Assembly: GCF_000696185.1 (NCBI RefSeq)
Contig: NZ_KK853997.1
Coordinates: 3,425,901 to 3,489,900, forward strand
Reading direction: 5' to 3'
DNA from: Kitasatospora cheerisanensis KCTC 2395
Lineage (GTDB): Bacteria; Actinomycetota; Actinomycetes; Streptomycetales; Streptomycetaceae
DNA length: 64,000 nucleotides
Positions 1 through 12,563 of the stretch are shown here, in pieces. The position numbers and the translations under genes were made by a program. The first letter of the stretch is position 1, and every line of letters starts with the position of its first letter. Below the pieces are notes generated by a model, which saw only the letters and a program-made list of their open reading frames with translations, searched no databases and was not told the origin of the DNA.

Positions 1-1
1 G

Positions 2-304
2 GCGGTCGCCGACTACTTCGACTTCTCGATCTACGTCGACGCCCGCACCGACGACATCGAGGCCTGGTACCTGGACCGGTTCCGCAAGCTCCGCGAGACC
101 GCCTTCCAGGACCCGAACTCCTACTTCCGGCGCTTCACCGAGGTGCCCGAGGAGGAGGCGATGGACTACGGCCGACAGGTCTGGCGGACCATCAACAAGC
201 CGAACCTGCTGGAGAACGTCCTGCCCACCCGCGGCCGGGCCACCCTGATCCTGCAGAAGGGCGCGGACCACAAGGTCCGCCGCGCACTGCTGCGCAAGCT
301 CTGA
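2..304 (+). CDS. coaA: Pantothenate kinase type I, C-terminal part
   Basis: This is the last 100 residues of an open frame that enters from before base 1 and stops with TGA. The segments [46 protein letters not shown] and [13 protein letters not shown] are typical of the C-terminal half of prokaryotic type I pantothenate kinase, which phosphorylates pantothenate in the first step of coenzyme A synthesis. The P-loop lies outside the window. In Streptomyces, coaA lies near glmM; here a five-gene polysaccharide locus separates the two. The gene is convergent with the lipoprotein gene at 335-1396. Confidence 0.9.
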
Positions 305-319
305 CGGGGCGCCGGCAGA

Positions 320-353
320 CCGGCCGACGGCCCGTCAGGACGCCGTCGGCCGG
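320..353. terminator. Bidirectional hairpin between coaA and the convergent GH26 gene
   Basis: A perfect 12 bp inverted repeat (320-331 with 342-353) encloses a 10-base loop. It lies 15 bases after the coaA stop and overlaps the last codons of the opposing gene, so it could stop transcription from both sides. There is no T run, as is common in this genome. Confidence 0.6.
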
Positions 354-1396
354 GCCACCGGCCAGGAGCGCAGCGAGAGGGTCCCCAGGCCGTCCGCGAA
401 GGCCTTCCGGGTGGCCTGGTCGGTGGCGAACCGGTAGTCGTAGCGGCCGCCCTCCTCGACGCTGTGCTCGAACCAGACGAAGCCGGGCACCTTCGGGTGC
501 TCGGATATCCACTCGAACATGTCGGTGATCCAGGCGGCCTTCCGCGGGTCCGGCATCGCGCCGGTCTCCGAGACGAACACCGGCTTGTCGGCGACCTCGC
601 GCAGCCGGATGTAGGTCGGGTCGAGGACCTCGGAGGCGGTGGCCTCGCCGAAGCCGTAGGCGTCCATGCCCATCCAGTCGACGTACGCGTCGCCCGGGTA
701 GAGCTTCTGCAGGTCGCCGGAGGCGCCGCGGATCACGTTCGGGCTCCACAGCCAGATGACGTTGTCGACGTGCTCGGCGGCGAAGATGTCGTGCACGTGG
801 CGCCAGGCCGCCGCGTAGTCGCCCGGCTTGTTGCCGTTGGCGTTCGCCGACCACGGGTACCAGTCGCCGTTCATCTCGTGGGCGAACCGCAGCACCACCG
901 GCCAGCGCTGGTCACGGACCGCGCGGGCGAAGCGGGTTATGTACGGGTCGAACGCGCCGTCGGCGATCCGGCGGGTCGCGTACGAGGGCTGGTTCGCGGC
1001 GTACGGGGCGTCACCCGGCTCCCAGGTGAGCATCGGCACCGCGCCCTGCCGGTAGATCTCCTGGACGGTCGCCGGGTCGAACTCCTTGCGCCAGTCCAGG
1101 AAGTACTGCAGCATCGTCGGCCGCTTCCCGGCCGCCGCGGCGACCGCGTCGGTCTCGGCCGCGGAAGGGGTCTGATAGGTGCTCACCCCGAAGAACACGC
1201 CGGGGGCCGCCATGATCTGGGCCTTGGTCGGTGGGCCGGCCTCGGCCGGCGCGGAGGCGGACGGCGAACCGCCGTCCGGCTGCGCGCCGAACAGCGCACC
1301 GGCCGGGCCGGTGCCGTCGGACGCGCCCGAACACGACACGCCGGCCGCCATCAGTACCAACGCGGCGGCGCCGCGGCACCACGACCGGCGGTTCAT
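335..1396 (-). CDS. GH26-like glycoside hydrolase lipoprotein (beta-mannanase family)
   Basis: The 353-residue product starts with a lipoprotein signal peptide, a hydrophobic stretch ending in GVSC with Cys22 as the lipidated residue. A short Ala/Pro/Ser linker leads to a (beta/alpha)8-type domain from about residue 65. RFAHEMNGDWYPW carries the likely acid/base Glu174 and VFVSETGA the likely nucleophile Glu277, as in GH26 mannanase and endoglucanase relatives. A GAGGGGA site stands 8 bases before the ATG. It lies 24 bases after the gene at 1421-2332 and is probably co-transcribed with it. A paralogue with the same two motifs lies at 4169-5182. Substrate is not known; a surface hydrolase trimming a beta-linked glycan is the likely role. 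Confidence 0.8.
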   Translation of the reverse strand: MNRRSWCRGAAALVLMAAGVSCSGASDGTGPAGALFGAQPDGGSPSASAPAEAGPPTKAQIMAAPGVFFGVSTYQTPSAAETDAVAAAAGKRPTMLQYFLDWRKEFDPATVQEIYRQGAVPMLTWEPGDAPYAANQPSYATRRIADGAFDPYITRFARAVRDQRWPVVLRFAHEMNGDWYPWSANANGNKPGDYAAAWRHVHDIFAAEHVDNVIWLWSPNVIRGASGDLQKLYPGDAYVDWMGMDAYGFGEATASEVLDPTYIRLREVADKPVFVSETGAMPDPRKAAWITDMFEWISEHPKVPGFVWFEHSVEEGGRYDYRFATDQATRKAFADGLGTLSLRSWPVARPTAS

Positions 1397-1420
1397 CCGT
1401 TCATTCCCCTCGATTGATCG

Positions 1421-2332
1421 TCAGGCCCCCTTGGTCAGCAACTGGTCGAAGTAGCCGTCGAGTTCCTTGCCGGCGCTCTGCGCCAACGGGTCCTGGTCGC
1501 CGGCGCTGCCGCTGATCGGGCCCGCCACCGTGAACACCACGTAGCGGCCCTCGACCCGGTTGGTCAGCGAGCAGGCGACGTTGCGGCAGAACTCTCCCAC
1601 ATTGTCCTTGCCGAACAGTGGCTGGATCTGGCCCTTCATGCCGCTGCCGACCTTCTTCGCGTCGGCCTCGCTCTTGAACACCGCGACGCCCACCGTCACG
1701 GCCGTGTTGCCGCTGAAGTAGGTGCCGCGCATCAGCTGACTGCAGTTCGCGTTGGTGAGGACGTCACCGAGGCCGGCTCCGGTTGCCCTCCAGCACGGAT
1801 TGTCCGTGGTGGTGGACTTGCGGACGTAGTTGTGCCCGCCGATGTTGAGCGACTGGTCGGCGAACAGGGCCTCGGCGGTGATGGCCGGCGGCAACTGCTT
1901 GCCCGGCGAAGCGCTGCCCGACGGCTTGGCGCTGCCGGTGGGCGACGCCGGGGCGGACGCCGACTGCGAGGCGACCGGCTTGTTGTCGGGAGTGTCCTTC
2001 TGACTCAGCACGGCGACCGCGGCCGCGCCCGCGCCGAGCACCACCACGCCGACGCCGATGCCCAGACCCGTCATCAGGCGCTTGCGGCGCACCTGGGCCT
2101 CGCGCTGGTCGGCCAGCTGCTGCCAGTCCGGCTCGAACGACTGCTGGACCGGCGGAGGCCCCGGATAGGGGTACTGTGTCTGCTGCTGCTGCCACGGCTG
2201 AGGCTGTTGCGGGAACTGCGGAGCACCCTGGGCCGGCGGCTGACCAGGCATCTGCTGGGGCCCGCCGAAAGGCTGTTGCGGCTGCCCACCCGGAGTGTTC
2301 GGACTCTGCGGTACACCCATCCCATCGCTCAT
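1421..2332 (-). CDS. Single-pass membrane protein with Pro/Gln-rich cytoplasmic tail
   Basis: I do not recognise a named family. The 303-residue product has a Pro/Gln/Gly-rich N terminus (residues 1-65), a basic stretch VRRKR, one membrane segment at about 87-110, a Ser/Pro/Ala linker (about 118-150) and an extracellular domain with several cysteines. This build resembles the many Streptomyces proteins with a PQ-rich tail and a secreted sensor-like or scaffold domain. The open frame extends to 2548, but ATG 2332 is preferred because the PQ-rich protein begins there. TAGCAT stands 12 bases upstream of this ATG, so the mRNA may be nearly leaderless. It is divergent from the glycosyltransferase at 2559 and upstream of the GH26 gene. 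Confidence 0.65.
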   Translation of the reverse strand: MSDGMGVPQSPNTPGGQPQQPFGGPQQMPGQPPAQGAPQFPQQPQPWQQQQTQYPYPGPPPVQQSFEPDWQQLADQREAQVRRKRLMTGLGIGVGVVVLGAGAAAVAVLSQKDTPDNKPVASQSASAPASPTGSAKPSGSASPGKQLPPAITAEALFADQSLNIGGHNYVRKSTTTDNPCWRATGAGLGDVLTNANCSQLMRGTYFSGNTAVTVGVAVFKSEADAKKVGSGMKGQIQPLFGKDNVGEFCRNVACSLTNRVEGRYVVFTVAGPISGSAGDQDPLAQSAGKELDGYFDQLLTKGA

Positions 2333-2558
2333 GTGCGTGAATGCTAGGGCATCTGCGGCCATTCGGTGATGCCGCCTCCACAGCCATCCGGAATGTCCCG
2401 CTTTCCACCGGCCGCCGTCGCCGCACCGTGATGCAACCGTCATCCAGCGCCCCCGGGACGGCAAGACCCGTCCGATAAACTCCTCCGGCCGCCGGTCGCG
2501 CCTTACACCGCACAGGTAGGCCGAGTACGAATCCTGAAACACGGCCACGGGACCTCAC

Positions 2559-4172
2559 TTGTCCAGCAATACCGACTCGACTCGTCGCACCCAGCGGCGC
2601 AGCCCCGTTCCCGCGCAGCGCCGCCGGAAGCCCGCAGCGGCGCCGCCGGAGCTCGGGCTGCTTCCCAAGCCCCCGAACGACAGCGAGAAGTTCGCCTACG
2701 CGAAGCGCCACCTGTGGGTGCTGACGCTCAGTTCGCTGATCAGCTTCACCTGCCTGGCGTTCAGTCAGATCACCTTGGTCACCAAGGCTCCCTGGTTGTG
2801 GATCTACTCGCCGTTCCTGGCGTTCACGGTGATCTACTACCTGATCTCGCTCCGGGTCACCGGACTCAACGGCGACTTCGACGTCAAGGGCCACCGCCAG
2901 CTGGTGCGCACCTGGCGGCCGGAGGAGTACCCGACCGTCGACGTCTTCCTGCCGGTGTGCGGCGAGCCGATCGAGATCCTGCACAACACCTGGAAGCACG
3001 TCCGGGAGATGGCCGACGCCTACCCCGGCCTCTGCATGCCGTACGTGCTCGACGACTCCGCCAGCCCCGAACTCGAGGCCATGGCCGCCGACTTCGGCTT
3101 CCGCTACGGCACCCGGCCGAACCGCGGCTGGTACAAGAAGGCCGGCAACCTGCACTTCGGCTTCGGCAACTCCGACGGCGAGTTCATCCTCATCCTGGAC
3201 GCCGACTTCACGCCGCGGTCCGACCTGCTGTCCGAGCTCCTCCCGCACATGGACGCCGACCCGAAGCTCGGCATCGTCCAGTCCCCCCAGTACTTCCGGG
3301 TGCTGGACTCGCAGAGCTGGGTGGAGCGCGGCGCCGGCGCCGTGCAGGAGCTGTTCTACCGCTCGGTGCAGGTCTCCCGGCAGGCCCGCGACGGCGCGAT
3401 CTGCGTCGGCAGCTGCGCCATCTACCGGCGCGCCGCGCTGGAGGAGAACGGCGGCACCACGCTGATCGAGCACTCCGAGGACGTGCACACCGGCTTCGAC
3501 CTGCGCCGCCTCGGCTGGGGTCTGAAGTACGTGCCGCTGGCGCTGGCCACCGGAGTCTGCCCGGACACCGCGGGCGCGTTCTACAACCAGCAGTACCGCT
3601 GGTGCTCCGGCTCGATGAGCCTGCTCGGCAGCCGCAAGTTCTGGGACACCAAGCTGCGCTGGAGCAGCCGGCTCTGCTACATGTCCGGCTTCTTCTACTA
3701 CATCCACACGGCGATCTTCATCTTCCTGTCGCCGGTGATCCCGCTGGCGCTGCTGATCTGGCACCCGGAGATGTTCCTGGTCGAGCGGCTCTGGCTGGTG
3801 CTGCCCAGCCTGGTCTACACCACCATGATCTTCCCGCTCTGGCACCGCGTCCCGTACCGCCTGGAAGCCTGGTCCTGCCGCATGATGTACGGCTGGGCGC
3901 ACTTCTTCGCGATCTGGGACATCCTGCGCCGCAAGCGGATGGCGTGGCAGCCCACCGGTTCCAGCACCGCCAAGAAGAACCGCACCCGCCGACTGTGGAT
4001 CGGCCTGTCCGTGTGGGGCGGCGGCACCGCCCTCGCCTGGGTCGGCATCGCCGTGTGGCGCATCCTCACCGGGTACCCGCCGGACTACGCCCTGGTGCTC
4101 GCCTCCGGGCTGTTCTACGCCCTGGTGGTCGGCCGCACCCTCCTCCAGCCCCGAAGCGAGAAGGCCGCGTGA
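2559..4172 (+). CDS. Processive family 2 glycosyltransferase, cellulose synthase-like
   Basis: The 537-residue membrane enzyme should polymerise a beta-glycan from a nucleotide sugar and pass it through its own channel. A basic, disordered N terminus is followed by two membrane segments (about 51-70 and 79-98), the GT-A domain, and further membrane segments from about 365 on. The catalytic signature is complete: DDS (165-167), DAD (214-216), EDVHTG (307-312) and QQYRWCSGS (344-352, the Q-x-x-R-W motif). No PilZ domain is visible, so c-di-GMP control of the BcsA kind is not expected. The start is TTG. The gene overlaps the next by GTGA. Product polymer is unknown; cellulose- or mannan-like chains are possible. 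Confidence 0.85.
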   Translation: MSSNTDSTRRTQRRSPVPAQRRRKPAAAPPELGLLPKPPNDSEKFAYAKRHLWVLTLSSLISFTCLAFSQITLVTKAPWLWIYSPFLAFTVIYYLISLRVTGLNGDFDVKGHRQLVRTWRPEEYPTVDVFLPVCGEPIEILHNTWKHVREMADAYPGLCMPYVLDDSASPELEAMAADFGFRYGTRPNRGWYKKAGNLHFGFGNSDGEFILILDADFTPRSDLLSELLPHMDADPKLGIVQSPQYFRVLDSQSWVERGAGAVQELFYRSVQVSRQARDGAICVGSCAIYRRAALEENGGTTLIEHSEDVHTGFDLRRLGWGLKYVPLALATGVCPDTAGAFYNQQYRWCSGSMSLLGSRKFWDTKLRWSSRLCYMSGFFYYIHTAIFIFLSPVIPLALLIWHPEMFLVERLWLVLPSLVYTTMIFPLWHRVPYRLEAWSCRMMYGWAHFFAIWDILRRKRMAWQPTGSSTAKKNRTRRLWIGLSVWGGGTALAWVGIAVWRILTGYPPDYALVLASGLFYALVVGRTLLQPRSEKAA

Positions 4173-5182
4173 AACCGACCTACCGAGCCCGAACAGCCGC
4201 GTGCCTGCTGATGGCCGGCCTGCTCACCCTGCTGCCCGGCTGCACCCGCTCCGGGTCGACCGCCGGCGGCCACGACGCGTTCGGCCCCGGCGACACCCAG
4301 GTGGCCTCCGCCGACCCCACCCAGGCGCCGGCCGACACCACCCCGCTGCTGCAGCCCGCGAAGAAGTACATCGGCGTCGCCCTGGACGGCGCCCCGGCGT
4401 CCATGGACCCGGTGCAGAAGTACACCCAGCTGGTCGGCAAGCAGCCCAACATCATTGAGAACTACGCCGGTTGGGGCGACCAGTTCGACTCCACCGGCGT
4501 CCGGCTGACCTGGCAGAACGGCGCCCTGCCGTACATCGCCTGGGAGCCGCACAAGACCCCGCTGGCCGACATCGCCAAGGGCGCCTCGGACGACTACATC
4601 AAGACCTTCGCCTCCGCCGTCCAGAAGACCAACGTCCCGGTGGCGATCAGCTTCGCCCACGAGATGAACGGCCACTGGTACGACTGGGGCACCAAGACCA
4701 ACAGCCCCGAGGACTTCGTCGGGGCGTGGCGCCGGATCCACGACATCTTCCAGGACCGCGGTGCGTCCAACGTCATCTGGGTGTGGAGCCCGAACATCAT
4801 CAACCCGGTGAAGAACGTCGCCCTCCAGCCGTACTTCCCGGGCGACGGCTACATCGACTGGGTCGGCATGGTCGGCTACTGGACCGAGTGCTGCGACAAG
4901 AACTTCGAGCAGGTCTACGGCGGGACCATGGACCAGGTCCGCGCCTTCACCGGCAAGCCCTTCATCATCAGCGAGACCGCCGCCGAACCCGGCAAGAAGG
5001 CGTCCTCCTTCGTCGAAGAGCTCTTCAACGGCGTGGAGAAGCACCCGGACGTCCTGGGCTTCATCTGGTTCAACATCAGCAAGCGCGCCGACTGGCGGCT
5101 GGAGAAGACGCCCAGCTCGCTGGCCGCCTTCAAGCAGCACGCTGCCGACCCCCAGTACGGCTTCGATCCGAGAAAACCCTGA
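4169..5182 (+). CDS. GH26-like glycoside hydrolase lipoprotein, second copy
   Basis: The 337-residue product has a lipoprotein signal ending LLPGC (Cys25) and a GH26-type domain. SFAHEMNGHWYDW carries Glu165 (acid/base) and FIISETAAE carries Glu269 (nucleophile). It keeps the same layout as the protein at 335-1396 (WSPN, PYFPGDGYIDWVGM, GFIWF), so the two are paralogues. The GTG start overlaps the stop of the glycosyltransferase by 4 bases and its TGA overlaps the next ATG, which implies tight translational coupling. This pairing suggests a synthase-associated hydrolase that edits or releases the polymer, as BcsZ does for cellulose; that role is inferred. Confidence 0.8.
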   Translation: MKPTYRARTAACLLMAGLLTLLPGCTRSGSTAGGHDAFGPGDTQVASADPTQAPADTTPLLQPAKKYIGVALDGAPASMDPVQKYTQLVGKQPNIIENYAGWGDQFDSTGVRLTWQNGALPYIAWEPHKTPLADIAKGASDDYIKTFASAVQKTNVPVAISFAHEMNGHWYDWGTKTNSPEDFVGAWRRIHDIFQDRGASNVIWVWSPNIINPVKNVALQPYFPGDGYIDWVGMVGYWTECCDKNFEQVYGGTMDQVRAFTGKPFIISETAAEPGKKASSFVEELFNGVEKHPDVLGFIWFNISKRADWRLEKTPSSLAAFKQHAADPQYGFDPRKP

Positions 5183-6906
5183 TGACGCAGCAGCGCGACG
5201 ACGCATTCACCCCCCACGCCTCCGACGAGCACGAGGACCACTACCGCGAGGACCGCTACCGCGCGGAACGGAGCTTCAGCTGGTTCGTCGAAGAACCCCC
5301 GGCCGCGCCGCAGGAACAGCCGGCCCCCGAACCCGGCTACACCCTGCCCGACGTCCCCGACGTCGGCTGGGACCCGCTGCCCAGCAGCCGCCGCACCTGG
5401 GTCAGCCGTCTGGTGCTGTTCGGCATCCTGCTCGCGCAGGCCCTGCTGACGCTCCGGCTGAGCAACAGCGCCTTCGAGGACGAGGCGCTGTACCTGTACG
5501 CGGGCCACCTCCAGCTGCACCACCTGAACGGCGGCGCCCCGCTGCCGGACTCCTTCGCCTCGTACTTCTCCGGCTCGCCGCTGCTGTACCCGCCGCTGGC
5601 CGCCGCGTTCGACGCCTGGTTCGGCCTGGCCGGCGCCCGCGGCCTGTCGCTGGGCTTCATGCTGGGCACCACCGCCCTGCTGTACATGATGACCCGCCGG
5701 CTGTTCAACGAGCGGGTCGGCCTGGTCGCCGCGGCCTGCTTCGCCGTCACCCAGTCCACCCTGTTCATGGGCGCGCTGGCCACCTACGACGCGGCCGCGC
5801 TGTTCCTGATCGCGGTCGGCGCCTGGCTCGCGGTGCGCACCGCCCGCCGCGGCTGGTGGCTGAGCACCCTGACCATCCCCCCGGTCCTGGTGCTGGCCGT
5901 CGCCGTCAAGTACGCCTCGCTGATGTACGCCCCGATCGTGGTGGCGCTGGCCTGCCTGGCCGCCGTGCCGTACCACGCCTGGCGGGCGCTGCTGCGGGCG
6001 TTCCTGATCCCGGCCGTCGCGGTCGGCGGCGCGTACGCCGCGCTGCGTCTCACCGGCTCGGACATGCTCGAGGGCCTGCAGTCCACCACCACCGCCCGCG
6101 CCACCGGCCACGGCGTCCGGATGGACATGCTCCGCGACTGCGCCGAGTGGGGCGGCCTGCTGTTCGCCCTGGCGCTGCTCGGCACCGTGCTGTACGCCCT
6201 CAAGGGCCGCATGAGCGAGGCCCCGACCATGCACGCCGTCCGGGTGCCGCGCCGGCTGTGGCGCATCCTGATGGGCCTGCTGCTGACCGGCACCGCGGTG
6301 CTCGCGCCGGCGTACCAGATCTGGATCCACGAGAGCGTCTCGCTGCACAAGCACATCGGCTACGGCCTGTTCTTCGCCGCACCGATGGCCGCCCTCGGCA
6401 TCACCCGCGTGGTCGGCTCGCACTTCCGCCACCCGCAGCTCGGCATCCTCGCCTGGGTCACCCTGCTGGTGCTCGGCATGGTGCAGTCCAACAGCCTGTA
6501 CCACGCCTGGCCGAACTCCAGCCAGCTGATCGCCACCCTCGACCGGCAGCTGGTGCCCAACGGGCACTACCTGGTCGAGGCGAACTCGGTCCCGCGCTAC
6601 TACCTGCGGGAGAAGGTCGAGTTCGGCCAGTGGACGTCGACGTACACCATCACGTACCAGACCAAGGACAAGAAGCTGCTCAGCGGTGAGCAGGGCTTCA
6701 AGGCCGCCCTCACCGACGGCTACTTCGACGTCGTGGTGTTCGACCGGACGGTCACCGGCGCGCTCGACGAGAAGCTCACCAAGCAGCTCCGCACCGAGGG
6801 CAAGTACCGACTGCTCGTCAGCATCCCCTACCAGAACACCTACGGTAAGGGCTTCTACCAGGTGTGGATCCCGGTGAAGAAGAACCAACCCGCCCCGCAG
6901 CAGTAG
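5182..6906 (+). CDS. GT39-type (ArnT/PMT-like) membrane glycosyltransferase
   Basis: The 574-residue protein has an acidic cytoplasmic N terminus (about 70 residues) and then 10 or more membrane segments. The first loop contains FEDEALYLYAGH, the acidic catalytic motif of GT-C fold enzymes that use polyprenyl-phosphate sugars. The C-terminal 130 residues form a soluble extracytoplasmic domain with NGHYLVEANSVPRYYL. It is the last gene of a three-gene operon whose members overlap at every junction. It may add side groups to the glycan made by the family 2 enzyme or glycosylate a surface protein; donor and acceptor cannot be read from sequence. Confidence 0.75.
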   Translation: MTQQRDDAFTPHASDEHEDHYREDRYRAERSFSWFVEEPPAAPQEQPAPEPGYTLPDVPDVGWDPLPSSRRTWVSRLVLFGILLAQALLTLRLSNSAFEDEALYLYAGHLQLHHLNGGAPLPDSFASYFSGSPLLYPPLAAAFDAWFGLAGARGLSLGFMLGTTALLYMMTRRLFNERVGLVAAACFAVTQSTLFMGALATYDAAALFLIAVGAWLAVRTARRGWWLSTLTIPPVLVLAVAVKYASLMYAPIVVALACLAAVPYHAWRALLRAFLIPAVAVGGAYAALRLTGSDMLEGLQSTTTARATGHGVRMDMLRDCAEWGGLLFALALLGTVLYALKGRMSEAPTMHAVRVPRRLWRILMGLLLTGTAVLAPAYQIWIHESVSLHKHIGYGLFFAAPMAALGITRVVGSHFRHPQLGILAWVTLLVLGMVQSNSLYHAWPNSSQLIATLDRQLVPNGHYLVEANSVPRYYLREKVEFGQWTSTYTITYQTKDKKLLSGEQGFKAALTDGYFDVVVFDRTVTGALDEKLTKQLRTEGKYRLLVSIPYQNTYGKGFYQVWIPVKKNQPAPQQ

Positions 6907-6921
6907 CAGCGGCAGGGAACG

Positions 6922-6957
6922 CGTCGGGGGCCGGTCCGAACGGACCGGCCCCCGACG
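6922..6957. terminator. Strong hairpin after the polysaccharide operon
   Basis: A 16 bp perfect GC-rich stem (6922-6937 with 6942-6957) has a 4-base loop and is followed by TTT on the plus strand. It lies 15 bases after the stop of the GT39 gene and 55 bases from the convergent glmM stop, so it can serve both. Confidence 0.85.
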
Positions 6958-7012
6958 TTTCGTCAGCCCGACGTTCTTGGTGAGCCCGACGGCGCGTCAG
7001 CCCGAGTTGCCG

Positions 7013-8377
7013 TCAGCCCAGGTGCAGCCGAACCGATTCGGCAAGGCGCTCGCAGACCGACAGGGCCTGCTCGTGGCCGACCGCCTCGACCATCACGCGC
7101 ACCAGCGGCTCGGTGCCGGACTTGCGCAGCAGCACCCGCCCGGTGGAGCCCAGCTCGGTCTCCGCGGCGGAGACCGCGGCCTGCAGTTCGAGGCAGGTCT
7201 CGACCCGGTCCTTGTCGACGTCCTTGACGTTGATCAGCACCTGCGGCAGCCGCGTCATCACGGTGGCGAGGTCGGCCAGCGGCTGCTTGGTCGCGGCCAG
7301 CCGGGCGCCCAGCATCAGGCCGGTCAGGGTGCCGTCGCCGGTGGTGGCGTGGTCGAGCAGGATCACGTGGCCGGACTGCTCGCCGCCGAGCGCGAAGCCG
7401 TGCTGCTTCATCTCCTCCAGCACGTACCGGTCGCCGACCGCGGTCTGCACCAGCTCGATGCCCTCGCGTTCCATCGCCAGCTTGAAGCCCAGGTTGGACA
7501 TCACGGTGGCGACCGCGGTGTTGCGGCGCAGCGTGCCGGCCTCCTTCATGGCGACCGCGAGGATCGCCAGGATCTGGTCGCCGTCGACCTCCTCGCCCTC
7601 GGCGTCGGCGGCCAGGCAGCGGTCCGCGTCGCCGTCCAGGGCGATGCCGAGGTCGGCCTTGTGCTCCTTCATCGCGGCGCGCAGCTTGTCCAGGTGGGTG
7701 GAGCCGACGCCGTCGTTGATGTTCAGGCCGGTCGGCTCGGTGCCCAGGGTGTACACCACCTCGGCGCCGGCCCGGGCGAACGCCTCCGGGGCGACCCGGG
7801 CGGCCGCACCGTGCGCGCCGTCGATGACGACCTTCACGCCGTCCAGCCGGTTCGGCAGCACCGCGACCAGGTGCGCCACGTACCGGTCGAAGCCCTCGTT
7901 GTACTGGCGGACCCGGCCCACCGCGGCGCCGGTCGGGCGGTCCCAGGTCTCGTCGCCGACGCCGTAGCGCCGGTAGTGCGACTCGATCGCGTCCTCGATC
8001 GCGTCGTCCAGCTTGTGGCCGCCGCGGGCGAGGAACTTGATGCCGTTGTCGGGCATCGCGTTGTGGCTGGCGGACAGCATCACGCCGAAGTCCGCGCCGA
8101 GCGCGCCGGTCAGGTACGCGACGGCCGGGGTGGGCAGCACGCCGACCCGCAGCACGTCCACGCCGGCACTGGCCAGGCCGGCGATCACCGCGGCCTCCAG
8201 GAACTCTCCGGACGCCCGGGGGTCACGGCCGACCACGGCGACCGGCCGGTGCCCCTCGAACGCGTTCGCGTCCCCGAGCACATGGGCGGCGGCCACTGAC
8301 AGGCCGAGCGCCAGCTCCGCGGTCAGGCCGACATTGGCCACCCCGCGCACCCCGTCCGTACCGAAGAGTCGTGCCAT
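7013..8377 (-). CDS. glmM: Phosphoglucosamine mutase
   Basis: It interconverts glucosamine-6-phosphate and glucosamine-1-phosphate on the way to UDP-GlcNAc and peptidoglycan. The 454 residues match the usual length. [10 protein letters not shown] starts domain 1. SASHN (102-106) carries the phosphoserine loop, DGDADR binds the metal, GEQSGH recognises the sugar and [12 protein letters not shown] binds phosphate. The frame is open upstream to 8500, but ATG 8377 gives the standard MARLFGTDG start and the extra stretch would cross the rpsI terminator. It follows rplM-rpsI, the usual Streptomyces order. Confidence 0.96.
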
Positions 8378-8461
8378 GTTCGCGTTCGTCCCGTCCTGTC
8401 GCGCCTGTCGGCTCGGTTGGTACCAGCCCCCGCGGACCCCGCACGAGTCCGGGAGGCACAA

Positions 8462-8490
8462 CGCCCCGGAGCACGAAGTGCTCCGGGGCG
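8462..8490 (-). terminator. Hairpin between rpsI and glmM
   Basis: A 13 bp perfect stem (8462-8474 with 8478-8490) has a 3-base loop. It begins 22 bases after the rpsI stop, before the glmM start, so it ends or weakens the rplM-rpsI transcript. Confidence 0.8.
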
Positions 8491-8511
8491 AGGATCGCAT
8501 GCAGGGTGCGA

Positions 8512-9018
8512 TTAGCGCTTGCTGTACTGCGGCGCCTTGCGGGCCTTCTTCAGACCGGCCTTCTTACGCTCGACGGCGCGGGCGTCACGGGTCAGGAAGC
8601 CGGCCTTCTTCAGCGGGCCGCGGTTGTTGTCCACGTCCGCCTCGTTCAGCGCACGGGCCACGCCGAGGCGCAGCGCGTAGGCCTGACCGGAGACGCCGCC
8701 ACCCGAGATGCGGGCGATGACGTCGTAACGGCCGTCCAGCTCCAGGAGCTTGAAGGGCTCGTTCACGGTCTGCTGGTGCACCTTGTTGGGGAAGTAGTTC
8801 TCCAGGGTGCGACCGTTGATCTTCCACACGCCGGTGCCGGGGACGATGCGCACGCGGGCGATCGCCTCCTTGCGGCGGCCGAGGCCGGCGCCGGGGACGG
8901 CCTCGCCGAAGCGGCCGGCCAGCGACTCGGTGGTGTACTCGGACTCGGTGGTGTACTCGTCGACGTTCTCGTCGTCGAAGTCGACCTCGAGGGTGCTCTC
9001 GATGGCAGTCTCGGCCAC
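8512..9018 (-). CDS. rpsI: 30S ribosomal protein S9
   Basis: The 168-residue S9 has an acidic N-terminal extension of about 40 residues and then the conserved core [46 protein letters not shown] and [17 protein letters not shown] ending in QYSKR. The basic C-terminal tail reaches into the 30S P site in known ribosomes. The extension holds a tandem duplication of EYTTES encoded by an exact 18 bp repeat. It follows rplM after a 47-base gap, in the two-gene operon found in most bacteria. Confidence 0.97.
8924..8959 (-). repeat. Exact 18 bp tandem repeat inside rpsI
   Basis: Positions 8924-8941 and 8942-8959 are identical and in frame, duplicating six residues (EYTTES) in the acidic, probably disordered N terminus of S9. 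It looks like a slippage or unequal exchange event with little cost to the ribosome. Confidence 0.9.
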
Positions 9019-9065
9019 GGTGTTCCTCAGCTCTTCTACGTCAGTTGGGGTGTGGGTGGCCGGAA

Positions 9066-9509
9066 TTACTGCGCGACCTGGGAGATCTCGAACGGCACCG
9101 GCTGCTGCGCAGCGTGCGGGTGCTGGTCGCCCGAGTAGACCTTCAGCTTCGAGAGCATCTGACGGCCGAGGCTGTTCTTGGGAACCATGCCCTTGATGGC
9201 CTTCTCGACGGCCTTCTCCGGGTTGTTCGCCAGCAGGTCGTCGTAACGGACCGAGCGGAGACCGCCCGGGAAGCCGCTGTGGCGGTAGGCCAGCTTCTGG
9301 GTCTTCTTGTTGCCCGAGAGGTGCACCTTGTCGGCGTTGATGATGATGACGAAGTCACCAGTGTCAACGTGCGGCGCGTAGATCGCCTTGTGCTTGCCCC
9401 GCAGGAGGTTGGCGGCCTGGGAGGCCAGGCGGCCGAGCACGACGTCGGTCGCGTCGATGACGTGCCACTGACGCTGGACGTCGCCGGGCTTGGGGCTGTA
9501 CGTACGCAC
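9066..9509 (-). CDS. rplM: 50S ribosomal protein L13
   Basis: This 147-residue early-assembly protein of the large subunit shows the usual motifs [52 protein letters not shown] and [20 protein letters not shown]. The start is GTG with a GAAGG site 8 bases upstream. It is first in the operon with rpsI, and a good promoter lies about 180 bases upstream, leaving a leader of about 170 nt. Confidence 0.97.
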
Positions 9510-9644
9510 GGTCGTAGCCTTCGCTTTTCAGTGAGTGGGTCCTGACAGGAGCACACAGACCCGGGGCCTCCAGCCAACCGTCCCGGACGCAATTCGGGCG
9601 TTGGCCGCTGGAGTTCGGCCTGTGGTGTCTCCGGCGTACCGACC

Positions 9645-9656
9645 TCTCACGTGAGA
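9645..9656 (-). promoter_or_regulatory. Perfect 12 bp palindrome in the rplM leader
   Basis: TCTCACGTGAGA is self-complementary and lies roughly 25-36 bases downstream of the start site predicted from the promoter at 9688-9717. It could be a protein site within the leader or one half of an RNA structure. No bound factor is known to me. Confidence 0.35.
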
Positions 9657-9687
9657 TAGAGCGAGCCAATACGCACAACAGCAGCCA

Positions 9688-9717
9688 ACAATACCGGTCC
9701 GGGGGCGCCGAATCCAA
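9688..9717 (-). promoter_or_regulatory. Candidate rplM-rpsI promoter
   Basis: On the minus strand TTGGAT (9712-9717) and TATTGT (9688-9693) are spaced by 18 bp, a good fit to the main vegetative sigma factor. The predicted start near 9681 leaves a leader of about 170 nt before the rplM GTG. Confidence 0.6.
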
Positions 9718-9732
9718 ACCGGCCCGGCGCCC
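9703..9732 (-). terminator. Possible terminator of the ABC-F gene
   Basis: A 7 bp perfect GC stem (9703-9709 with 9726-9732) closes a 16-base loop, 11 bases after the stop of the gene at 9744. It overlaps the -35 element of the rplM promoter, so it would act only on RNA arriving from upstream. Confidence 0.35.
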
Positions 9733-9743
9733 TCGCCGCGGAA

Positions 9744-11402
9744 TCAGCGGTCCCGGACCACCCGGGCCTCGTCCCAGACCGGCTCCGGCGACTCGTACAC
9801 CCGGCCGTCCGAGCCGAACACCAGGAAGCGGTCGAAGGTCCGCGCGAACCAGCGGTCGTGGGTGACGCACAGCACCGTGCCGTCGAACGCCTCCAGGCCC
9901 TGCTGCAGCGCCTCCGCGCTCTCCAGGTCCAGGTTGTCGGTCGGCTCGTCCAGCAGCAGGGCCGTCACACCGGACAGCTCCAGCTTCAGGATCATCAGCC
10001 GGGCCTGCTGCCCGCCGGACAGCGACTCGAACTTCTGCTCCTCCTGCCGGTCCAGCTCGTACCGGCGCAGCGCCGACATCGCGGCCCCGCGGGACAGCGC
10101 GTGCTCCTCCTCGACGATCGAGCGCACCGTGCGGCCCAGCAGCTCCGGATGGGCGTGGGTCTGCCGGAAGTGCCCCGGCACCACCCGGGCGCCGAGCTTC
10201 CAGGTGCCGCCGTGCTGCACCGTCTCGTCGCCGGCCAGCAGCCGCAGGAAGTGCGACTTGCCGGAGCCGTTGGAGCCCAGCACGCCCACCCGCTCGCCGT
10301 AGAAGACCTCCAGGTCGAACGGCTTCATCAGGCCGGTCAGCTCCAGGCCCTCCATGGTGAACGCCCGGACGCCGGTGCGGCCGCCCTTCAGCCGCATGCT
10401 GATGCTCTGCTCGCGCGGCGGCGCCTCGGGCGGGCCGGCGTCCTCGAACTTCTTCAGCCTGGTCTGCGCGGCCGCGTACCGGGACGCCATCTCGTGGCTG
10501 ACCGCGGCCGCCTGCCGCAGCGTCACCACCAGCTTCTTCAGCTTGGCGTGCTCCTCGTCCCAGCGGCGGCGCAGCTCCTCGAAGCGCTCGAAGCGGGCCT
10601 TGCGCGCCTCGTGGAAGGTGTCGAAGCCGCCGCCGTGCACCCACACGCTGGAGCCGGCCGCGCCGGACTCCACCGCGATGATCTTCTCGGCGGTGCGGGA
10701 GAGCAGCTCCCGGTCGTGCGAGATGTACAGCACCGTCTTGCCGGTGGCCCGGATGGCCTCCTCCAGCCAGCGCTTGCCCGGCACGTCCAGGTAGTTGTCC
10801 GGCTCGTCGAGCAGCAGCACCTCGTCCGGGCCGCGCAGCAGCGCCTCCAGCACCAGCCGCTTCTGCTCGCCGCCGGACAGCGTGTTCAGGCCGCGCCACT
10901 GCGCGCGCTCGAACGGCATGCCGAGCGCGGCCATGGTGCAGACGTCCCAGTCGGCCTCGTACTCGTAGCCGCCGGCGTCCGCCCAGTCGGAGAGCGCCTG
11001 GGCGTAGGCCATCTGCGACTTCTCGTCGTCCTGCGCGATCATCGCCAGCTCCGCGGCGTCCACCGTGCGGGCGGCGTCCGCGATCCGCTTCGGCGCGACC
11101 GAGACCAGCAGGTCCCGCACCGAGGCGTCGGGGGCCAGCGCGCCCGGGGTGTCCTTCGCGTCCTCCCGGCCGGTGGTGCCGACGAACTGGCGCATCACGC
11201 CCAGCCCGCCGCTCACCGTGACCGAGCCGCCGTGCGGCTGCACGTCGCCCGCGATCATGCGCAGCAGCGTGGTCTTGCCCGCGCCGTTCGCGCCGACCAG
11301 CGCGACGGCCGCGCCTTCGCCGACGCGGAAGGACGCGTCGTCGAACAGCACCCGCCCGTCCGGCAGGTAGTACTCCAGGTGCGAGATCTCGACGTGTCCC
11401 AT
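9744..11402 (-). CDS. ABC-F family ATPase (ribosome-associated, Uup/EttA-like)
   Basis: The 552-residue protein has two ATP-binding cassettes and no membrane segment, which defines ABC-F. Cassette 1 has GANGAGKTT, LSGGEQKR and LLLDEPDNYLD. Cassette 2 has GSNGSGKS, LSGGQQAR and LLLDEPTDNLD. Between them is a charged linker (RKARFERFEELRRRWDEEH) of the kind that reaches into the ribosomal E site or P site. Members free stalled ribosomes or protect them from antibiotics, and which applies here cannot be told. TTG 11438 is an alternative start, but it lies inside the -35 box, so ATG 11402 is chosen. Confidence 0.88.
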   Translation of the reverse strand: MGHVEISHLEYYLPDGRVLFDDASFRVGEGAAVALVGANGAGKTTLLRMIAGDVQPHGGSVTVSGGLGVMRQFVGTTGREDAKDTPGALAPDASVRDLLVSVAPKRIADAARTVDAAELAMIAQDDEKSQMAYAQALSDWADAGGYEYEADWDVCTMAALGMPFERAQWRGLNTLSGGEQKRLVLEALLRGPDEVLLLDEPDNYLDVPGKRWLEEAIRATGKTVLYISHDRELLSRTAEKIIAVESGAAGSSVWVHGGGFDTFHEARKARFERFEELRRRWDEEHAKLKKLVVTLRQAAAVSHEMASRYAAAQTRLKKFEDAGPPEAPPREQSISMRLKGGRTGVRAFTMEGLELTGLMKPFDLEVFYGERVGVLGSNGSGKSHFLRLLAGDETVQHGGTWKLGARVVPGHFRQTHAHPELLGRTVRSIVEEEHALSRGAAMSALRRYELDRQEEQKFESLSGGQQARLMILKLELSGVTALLLDEPTDNLDLESAEALQQGLEAFDGTVLCVTHDRWFARTFDRFLVFGSDGRVYESPEPVWDEARVVRDR

Positions 11403-11410
11403 GCCACGGA

Positions 11411-11438
11411 ATTGTGCCAAGCGCACGCCGGGCGACAA
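11411..11438 (-). promoter_or_regulatory. Promoter placing a nearly leaderless start at the ABC-F gene
   Basis: TTGTCG (11433-11438) and CACAAT (11411-11416) are 16 bp apart on the minus strand. Transcription would begin within a few bases of the ATG at 11402. No Shine-Dalgarno site precedes that ATG, which fits leaderless translation. Confidence 0.5.
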
Positions 11439-11520
11439 AACGGATTACCCGCCGCCCCCAACCCGCCCCGAGCAGCCCGGCCGACCGGCACCCCGCGCCG
11501 GCCTGCGGCGCCTCCGGCCG

Positions 11521-11540
11521 GACGGCGGCGGGCCGCCGTC
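11521..11540 (-). terminator. Hairpin after truA
   Basis: An 8 bp perfect GC stem (11521-11528 with 11533-11540) has a 4-base loop, beginning 9 bases past the truA stop codon. Confidence 0.6.
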
Positions 11541-11548
11541 TCCCGCCC

Positions 11549-12472
11549 TCAGTCGGATCCGCCCCCAGCAGCGCCGGAGGCGTCCCCGCCCAGCGTCCGC
11601 AGCCGCCGCGAAACCCGGTTCCGCTCCGCCAGCAGCGAGTCCTCCGGGTAGCCGACCTCCTCCAGCGTCAGCCCGTGCGGCCGGATCACGTTGACCGCGG
11701 AGTTGCGGACGCCGCCCGCCAGCACCTCGCCGGGGAACTCCACCGGCCGGTGCCCGTCGCCGACCAGCAGCATCGCGCCGACCAGCGAGCGCACCATGTT
11801 GTGGCAGAACGCGTCCGCCCGCACCGTCGCCACCGCCAGCGAGCCCTCCTGCGCGGCGTACGGGTCGATCGGGACGCGCTCCCAGTGCACTTCCAGCAGG
11901 GTGCGGATGGTCGTCGCGCCCTCGCGCTTCTTGCAGTACGCGGCGAAGTCGTGCTCGCCCACCAGCAGCGCGGCGGCGGCGTTCATCTTGTCCAGGTCGA
12001 GCGGCCGGTCGTGCCACAGCACGTGCCCGCGCAGCATCGGGTCGACGCCGCCGGGGTGGTCGGCGACCCGGTACGCGTAGCGCCGCCAGATCGCCGCGAA
12101 CCGGGCGTCGAAGCCGTGCGGGGCCTCCCCCAGCCGGTACACCCGGACGTCGGCGGGCAGCCGCCCGGCCAGCCGGCGCAGCAGCTTCTCGCCGTGCTGC
12201 GCCCACAGCTCGTCCGGCAGGTCGACGTGCGCGACCTGGCCGCGGGCGTGGACGCCGGCGTCGGTGCGGCCGGCCACGGTCAGCGGGAAGTTGTCCTCGC
12301 TGCGCAGCACGATCCGCAGCGCGTCCTCCAGCTCGCCCTGCACGGTGCGCCGGCCGCGCTGCCGTGCCCAGCCGGAGAACTCCGCCCCGTGGTACGCCAG
12401 GTCCAGCCTGATCCGGACGTGCCCGTCGGCGGGGCCGTCCTTCACCGGCGGCTGCTCGGCACAGTCGTTCAC
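11549..12472 (-). CDS. truA: tRNA pseudouridine synthase A
   Basis: It makes pseudouridine at positions 38-40 of tRNA anticodon arms. [13 protein letters not shown] carries the catalytic aspartate (residue 71 from the chosen start). [23 protein letters not shown] and the C-terminal KKREG and [22 protein letters not shown] segments are typical. The frame opens at 12550, but AGGGGAG lies 8 bases before GTG 12472 and 5 before GTG 12475, so one of these is the start, giving about 307 residues. It follows rplQ after a terminator-like hairpin, as in many bacteria. Confidence 0.93.
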
Positions 12473-12509
12473 CACTCCAACTCCCCTGTCTCGCTGCTGG
12501 GATGCGAAC

Positions 12510-12544
12510 GGGCCCGCTCCCCCGGCGAACGGGAGAGCGGGCCC
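12510..12544 (-). terminator. Hairpin after rplQ
   Basis: A 10 bp stem (12510-12519 with 12535-12544) continues by 3 more pairs past one bulged A, with an 8-base loop. It shares the core GGGCCCGCTCCCCCGG with the tuf terminator at 30982-31017. It lies 19 bases after the rplQ stop and before truA. Confidence 0.75.
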
Positions 12545-12563
12545 GGTCACGGACCTATGAGGC

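Follow-up and report, generated by a model that had tools for sequence, protein, structure and literature searches.

What does an actinomycete build with a cellulose synthase-like enzyme whose gene runs directly into that of a GH26 glycoside hydrolase? The question is raised by a 64,000-nucleotide stretch (the window) of the 8.17-Mb genome of Kitasatospora cheerisanensis KCTC 2395, in which gene calls from the sequence place two divergent units between coaA and glmM. The plus-strand unit is a trio comprising GT2, a BcsA-like processive synthase of 537 amino acids (P0003; 2559..4172); GH26b, a predicted lipoprotein resembling lichenase-like endo-glucanases (4169..5182); and a GT-C glycosyltransferase of the PMT_2/GT39-like kind, with about 9-13 predicted transmembrane helices and an extracellular C-terminal domain (5182..6906). 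We consider it rather probable that this trio specifies a synthase-dependent secreted beta-glucan, possibly of mixed linkage, which is trimmed outside the cell and decorated from polyprenyl-phosphate sugars. A preliminary description of this DNA had reported that the three genes overlap, and the coordinates agree: GT2 ends at 4172, four bases into GH26b, which starts with a GTG at 4169 (GTGA), and GH26b ends at 5182 on the first base of the ATG of the GT-C gene (TGATG), an overlap of 1 bp. GT2 itself starts with TTG, where its nearest orthologues have ATG at the same place.

The linkage between GT2 and GH26b is more than a chance association. Among 249 Streptomycetaceae genomes we recovered 43 GT2 orthologues in 40 genomes (about 16% of the sample), and each of the 43 is immediately followed by GH26b in the same orientation, with 132-590 bp between the aligned regions. 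Seen from the hydrolase, 44 GH26b matches were either paired with GT2 or scored >440 bits, and the sole one lacking GT2 starts 34 bp from a contig end. Within a sample of 61 genomes of the genus, using at least 59% identity to define orthologues, GT2 occurs in 18 (K. cheerisanensis included), the others having at best a paralogue of about 40% or a weaker GT2; GT2, GH26b and the GT39-like gene keep the same order and strand at 17/17 foreign Kitasatospora-group loci. The trio also occurs in Streptomyces, Streptacidiphilus, Sphaerisporangium, Planotetraspora and Actinospica, and thus in further actinomycete families, with named carriers including Streptomyces flaveolus, S. tauricus, S. canus, Streptacidiphilus jiangxiensis and Sphaerisporangium album. 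In a set of 71 named loci, defined by GH26b at 45% identity or above, the GT-C gene is third in order nearly throughout; the clear exception to the arrangement is L085, with a GT2 of 37% on the opposite strand, and two further loci begin at contig ends. Co-occurrence in other actinomycete genomes, by which the preliminary description proposed to check its reading, is therefore what these samples display. Streptomyces albiflavescens (L046) carries two complete GT2-GH26-GT39 trios in tandem (1435-5617 and 7439-11738).

GT2 matches the Pfam families Glyco_trans_2_3 and Cellulose_synt, and the same scan returned no PilZ domain, in line with the PilZ-free synthase described earlier; no BcsB-like gene was seen beside it. 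The motifs of processive synthases (DD, DxD, ED and QxxRW) are all present and invariant across the 18 GT2 orthologues. The closest solved relatives are the bacterial BcsA proteins (1e-33 with the single sequence, 1e-40 by profile), followed by plant CesA (1e-7), and no chitin or hyaluronan synthase structure matched at E<0.01. By sequence comparison, GT2 is not the CslA of the Streptomyces CslA-GlxA system, because the GlxA-adjacent (CslA-like) GT2 proteins of Streptomyces share no more than 25-27% identity with P0003 and the K. cheerisanensis genome has no detectable GlxA C-terminal (GO-like E-set) domain, in a search that was positive in 5/12 genomes tested. We also rejected CslA as the identity of the roughly 40% GT2 paralogue of most Kitasatospora genomes, given that genes with the GlxA domain are not nearby and that GlxA-linked synthases show the low identity to P0003 noted above. 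This paralogue may represent a further glucan locus; an example of about 41% identity (L036, G000 C1:1674000-1690000; gene at 7601-9277) lies near a gene for an SGNH-domain protein (10665-11939) whose C-terminal part reads as GH16 glucanase-like, with Pfam confirming SGNH only. The best non-actinobacterial match found, at 36.5%, is an annotated cellulose synthase on plasmid pLBA of Leptolyngbya boryana (L148 7977-9488), among whose annotated neighbors, mostly unnamed, there is no GH26 or PMT gene. At one further locus in a single genome, the trio is preceded at a distance of about 1.5 kb by a gene whose product combines GT2 and polysaccharide deacetylase domains, the type found in chitin and poly-N-acetylglucosamine (PNAG) synthases (L031 3178-5331).

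The GH26 family is polyspecific and includes mannanases, xylanases and lichenases. Both GH26b and a second protein of the minus-strand unit, GH26a (335..1396), belong to it, with PF02156 scores of 62.6 and 69.7 bits, respectively, over a cut-off of 20.2, and with the two catalytic glutamates E165 and E269 (P0004 numbering; the acid/base and nucleophile positions) invariant in 57/57 GH26 sequences. Lipobox-like signals in the two window proteins and in most orthologues support their prediction as lipoproteins, the position -2 of GH26b being Pro (LPGC) as opposed to the LTGC of its nearest orthologues. The nearest characterized relative of both, by sequence and profile and for GH26b also by fold, is the lichenase CtLic26A (Lic26A) of Clostridium thermocellum rather than a mannanase or xylanase. 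Thus, GH26a finds Lic26A in the PDB at 4.4e-29 and the best non-lichenase at 1.8e-13, GH26b finds it at 9.6e-35 and the next solved GH26 structure at 8e-11, and a profile built from 57 relatives scores 186 bits with Lic26A and at most 59 bits with any other GH26. The AlphaFold model of GH26b (predicted local distance difference test, pLDDT, 87 overall and >90 through most of the domain) superimposes on Lic26A with Z 34.7 and a root-mean-square deviation (rmsd) of 1.6 Å over 261 residues, versus Z 26.8 for mixed-linkage and 1,3-xylanases and Z about 25, at about 3 Å, for mannanases. We accordingly treat lichenase-type specificity of both proteins as a lead that these comparisons suggest, not as proof. 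GH26a lies at the same site in the two nearest relatives examined, L019 and L020 (80% identity), and probably also in G515, judged by the coordinates of a match at 3166828. Distant GH26 relatives across Actinomycetota were considered as members of the trio and rejected, since only the high-scoring ones sit with GT2, many others being GH26a-like and located elsewhere. Genomes lacking GT2 contain GH26a-like genes in pairs or triples, frequently on opposite strands (G044 C1:779643-783744, G483 C13:526893-533583, G501 C68:26766-34685, and others), possibly as another type of GH26 cluster.

The predicted structure of the third protein (predicted template modelling score, pTM, 0.86) clearly points to a GT-C transferase of the PMT/ArnT type, matching the folds of oligosaccharyltransferase catalytic subunits, ALG12, ArnT and PMTs (Z 25.8-21.6). 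Its first outer loop bears the expected acidic residues, E101 in 46/46 and D100 in 38/46 sequences (mostly as DE). Enzymes of this kind use polyprenyl-phosphate-linked sugars as donors on the outer side of the membrane. In Streptomyces, further genes of the cluster encode GtrA, a DPMS-like GT2, a UDP-glucose dehydrogenase and a second PMT_2 protein, so that the GT-C enzyme there appears to be accompanied by parts of a route for lipid-linked side-chain decoration; over the 71 named loci, we counted a DPMS-like GT2 in at least 30, GtrA in at least 12, a UDP-sugar dehydrogenase in at least 18 and a second PMT_2 in at least 23, figures that are minimal given a crude open reading frame caller. The K. 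cheerisanensis genome encodes three GtrA proteins and at least two close DPMS-like proteins elsewhere than at the trio.

Taken together, these components suggest the following course. The membrane GT2 would draw on intracellular UDP-glucose to polymerize glucose, threading the chain out via its own transmembrane channel. Outside, the membrane-anchored GH26b would cut or edit the chain in the manner of BcsZ and CcsZ in cellulose systems, joined in the K. cheerisanensis clade by GH26a; its lichenase-type fold suggests a chain with both beta-1,4 and beta-1,3 links. Side sugars would be transferred to the chain as it emerges by the GT-C enzyme, with a polyprenyl-phosphate sugar as donor; in many Streptomyces this donor could be supplied by the DPMS-like GT2, the GtrA flippase and the UDP-glucose dehydrogenase encoded beside the trio. 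What the data show directly is the gene order with its conservation, the folds and the conserved catalytic residues; glucose as the monomer, the mixed linkage, the editing role and the addition of side chains are inferred from these. Several points weigh against this proposal: the polymer itself is predicted from its genes; GT2 reaches only 176 bits with the BcsA/CelA equivalog TIGR03030, whose cut-off is 699.1; the plant CslA mannan synthases also lie near BcsA (PMC11022532), and therefore the synthase by itself would leave mannose possible; Lic26A is matched at no more than about 28% identity, and a lichenase-like sequence leaves specificity unfixed; the third protein stands exactly at the PMT_2 cut-off (PF13231, 26.1 bits); and the donor-pathway genes are absent from the window. 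The fullest version, namely a new type of exopolysaccharide, widespread among actinomycetes, in which a mixed-linkage beta-glucan is made by a synthase free of BcsB and PilZ, trimmed by a dedicated lichenase-type GH26 lipoprotein and given side sugars outside the cell by GT-C via polyprenyl-phosphate and GtrA, is one we offer tentatively and hold to be possible rather than probable.

Of the other explanations, plain or substituted cellulose (beta-1,4 links only), with the GH26 proteins acting as BcsZ-like endo-glucanases on the lichenase branch of the family, is unlikely but survives best. GH12 enzymes act on beta-1,4-glucans, and a lipoprotein combining GH12 with a ricin-type lectin is encoded beside GT2 at sister loci (L040, L044, L072 and L097 among the named loci, plus L028). 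The proximity of GT2 to BcsA and the established production of cellulose by CslA-GlxA in Streptomyces (PMC11022532) also speak for it. However, the closest characterized GH26 enzyme is a lichenase, a class that by established enzymology requires 1,3 links, and the GlxA-linked synthases are, as noted, only distantly similar to GT2. A beta-mannan or glucomannan cleaved by GH26 mannanases, as the preliminary description had hinted from the hydrolase family, appears improbable: most characterized GH26 enzymes are indeed mannanases, and the relationship of the plant mannan synthases to BcsA lends it some room, but GH26a and GH26b match the lichenase at least 10 orders of magnitude better than any mannanase, the model fits it about twice as closely, and in the published GH26 tree all characterized mannanases fall on two branches with the lichenases on another (PMC6556568). 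The grouping with Lic26A thus turns the hydrolase family into an argument against mannan, and GH12 at four loci adds to it; what stands of the earlier suggestion is the dedicated secreted beta-glycan with its own hydrolase, upheld by the conserved, BcsA/BcsZ-like gene set, and not its mannan-like nature. That the GH26 lipoproteins merely scavenge plant beta-glucan, with no part in a polymer of the bacterium's own, is most improbable, for although plant litter is a habitat of Kitasatospora and Streptomyces and many of these genomes have GH26 proteins unlinked to the trio GT2, the linkage is without exception in the 43 orthologues, the frames overlap the synthase, and genes for sugar transporters or regulators are not a recurrent feature of the trio's surroundings.

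Returning to the beta-glucan system that we favor, the minus-strand unit contains, besides GH26a, a gene for a protein with a Pro/Gln-rich N-terminus, one predicted transmembrane helix (residues 90-108) and an extracellular domain (1421..2332), so that the second GH26 lipoprotein and the PQ-rich membrane protein do face the opposite way, as first described; the earlier account of the gene arrangement holds in all its details. The PQ-rich protein has a CwsA-like Pfam match of 0.0018, below the cut-off. Its one-helix relatives beside the trio have, in some genomes, a LamG lectin-like domain at the C-terminus (L044, L043, L052, L063, L072, L097 and L035; confirmed by Pfam in L044 and L035, by clustering in the remainder), and therefore the protein, whose window version is without LamG, may bind the polymer. 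The intergenic stretch separating the two units (2333..2558) presumably carries putative promoters of both. No TTA codons were found in the cluster genes, and hence there is no sign of bldA control. Genes for ribonucleotide reductase, GNAT and AraC proteins that recur near some Kitasatospora loci look like bystanders.

The preliminary description had further linked the locus to UDP-GlcNAc synthesis through glmM (about 7013-8377, minus strand), which flanks it on the right as coaA (1-304) does on the left. This link is weakened by the wider comparison: 15/17 orthologous Kitasatospora-group loci examined lack the glmM and coaA neighbors, and the Streptomyces trio usually lies between truA and rplM (truA at 37/71 and rplM at 32/71 named loci), upstream of rpsI-glmM, placing the window trio, adjoining coaA, on the other side of glmM. 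Therefore, glmM reads as a positional neighbor, and its presence gives no indication, as far as gene context goes, of UDP-GlcNAc as substrate. The region can be viewed as one conserved block in which the cluster takes either of two positions, coaA|glmM here (window 1-12550) and truA|rplM in Streptomyces (cf. L042, L153).

To our knowledge, the surface polymers recognized in the relatives of Streptomyces are the CslA-GlxA cellulose and the MatAB PNAG-like glycan. We found no description of a GT2-GH26-GT-C gene set in the open-access literature (most subscription journals lay outside this scope), and the polymer of the trio appears to be undescribed; if it proved to be a mixed-linkage glucan, the known range of such glucans would come to include the actinomycetes, for which the same literature holds no such report. 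In terms of known systems, the proposed parallel with BcsA and BcsZ holds as an analogy: Bcs (BcsA-BcsB-BcsZ) and the clostridial CcsZABHI, in which CcsZ serves a Gram-positive cellulose synthase as its hydrolase (PMC7710045), likewise encode a BcsA-like GT2 with a secreted endo-glucanase, whereas the trio lacks PilZ and BcsB, has a GH26 rather than a GH8 or GH5 hydrolase and includes GT-C in its core. CslA-GlxA shares with it an actinomycete BcsA-like GT2 for a surface glucan and differs in having a copper oxidase as partner. A BcsA-like GT2 that does without BcsB is also described for two mixed-linkage glucan synthases, RiGT2 of Romboutsia (PMC10374906) and BgsA of Sinorhizobium, neither of them, in the texts consulted, with a GH26 or GT-C partner; a lichenase-cleavable product is what we propose for the trio, and our matches of about 30% on a Sinorhizobium megaplasmid are not confirmed as BgsA. 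CtLic26A has the fold and catalytic glutamates of GH26b, but works in the cellulosome as a degradative enzyme and is not a lipoprotein linked to a synthase. The wps-1 cluster of Actinoplanes missouriensis also houses a GH26 gene (WpsE) among actinomycete exopolysaccharide genes, but belongs to a Wzx/Wzy-dependent pathway with no processive synthase (PMC13390465). Finally, GtrA-type three-component extracellular glycosylation unites GtrA, a polyprenyl-phosphate-sugar synthase and a GT-C enzyme as the Streptomyces clusters do, whereas the trio, beside which GtrA is missing in the window, is tied to a processive beta-glycan synthase. Set against these systems, the locus points to a further actinomycete surface polymer, in which a processive synthase would be coupled to both lichenase-type editing and lipid-linked decoration.

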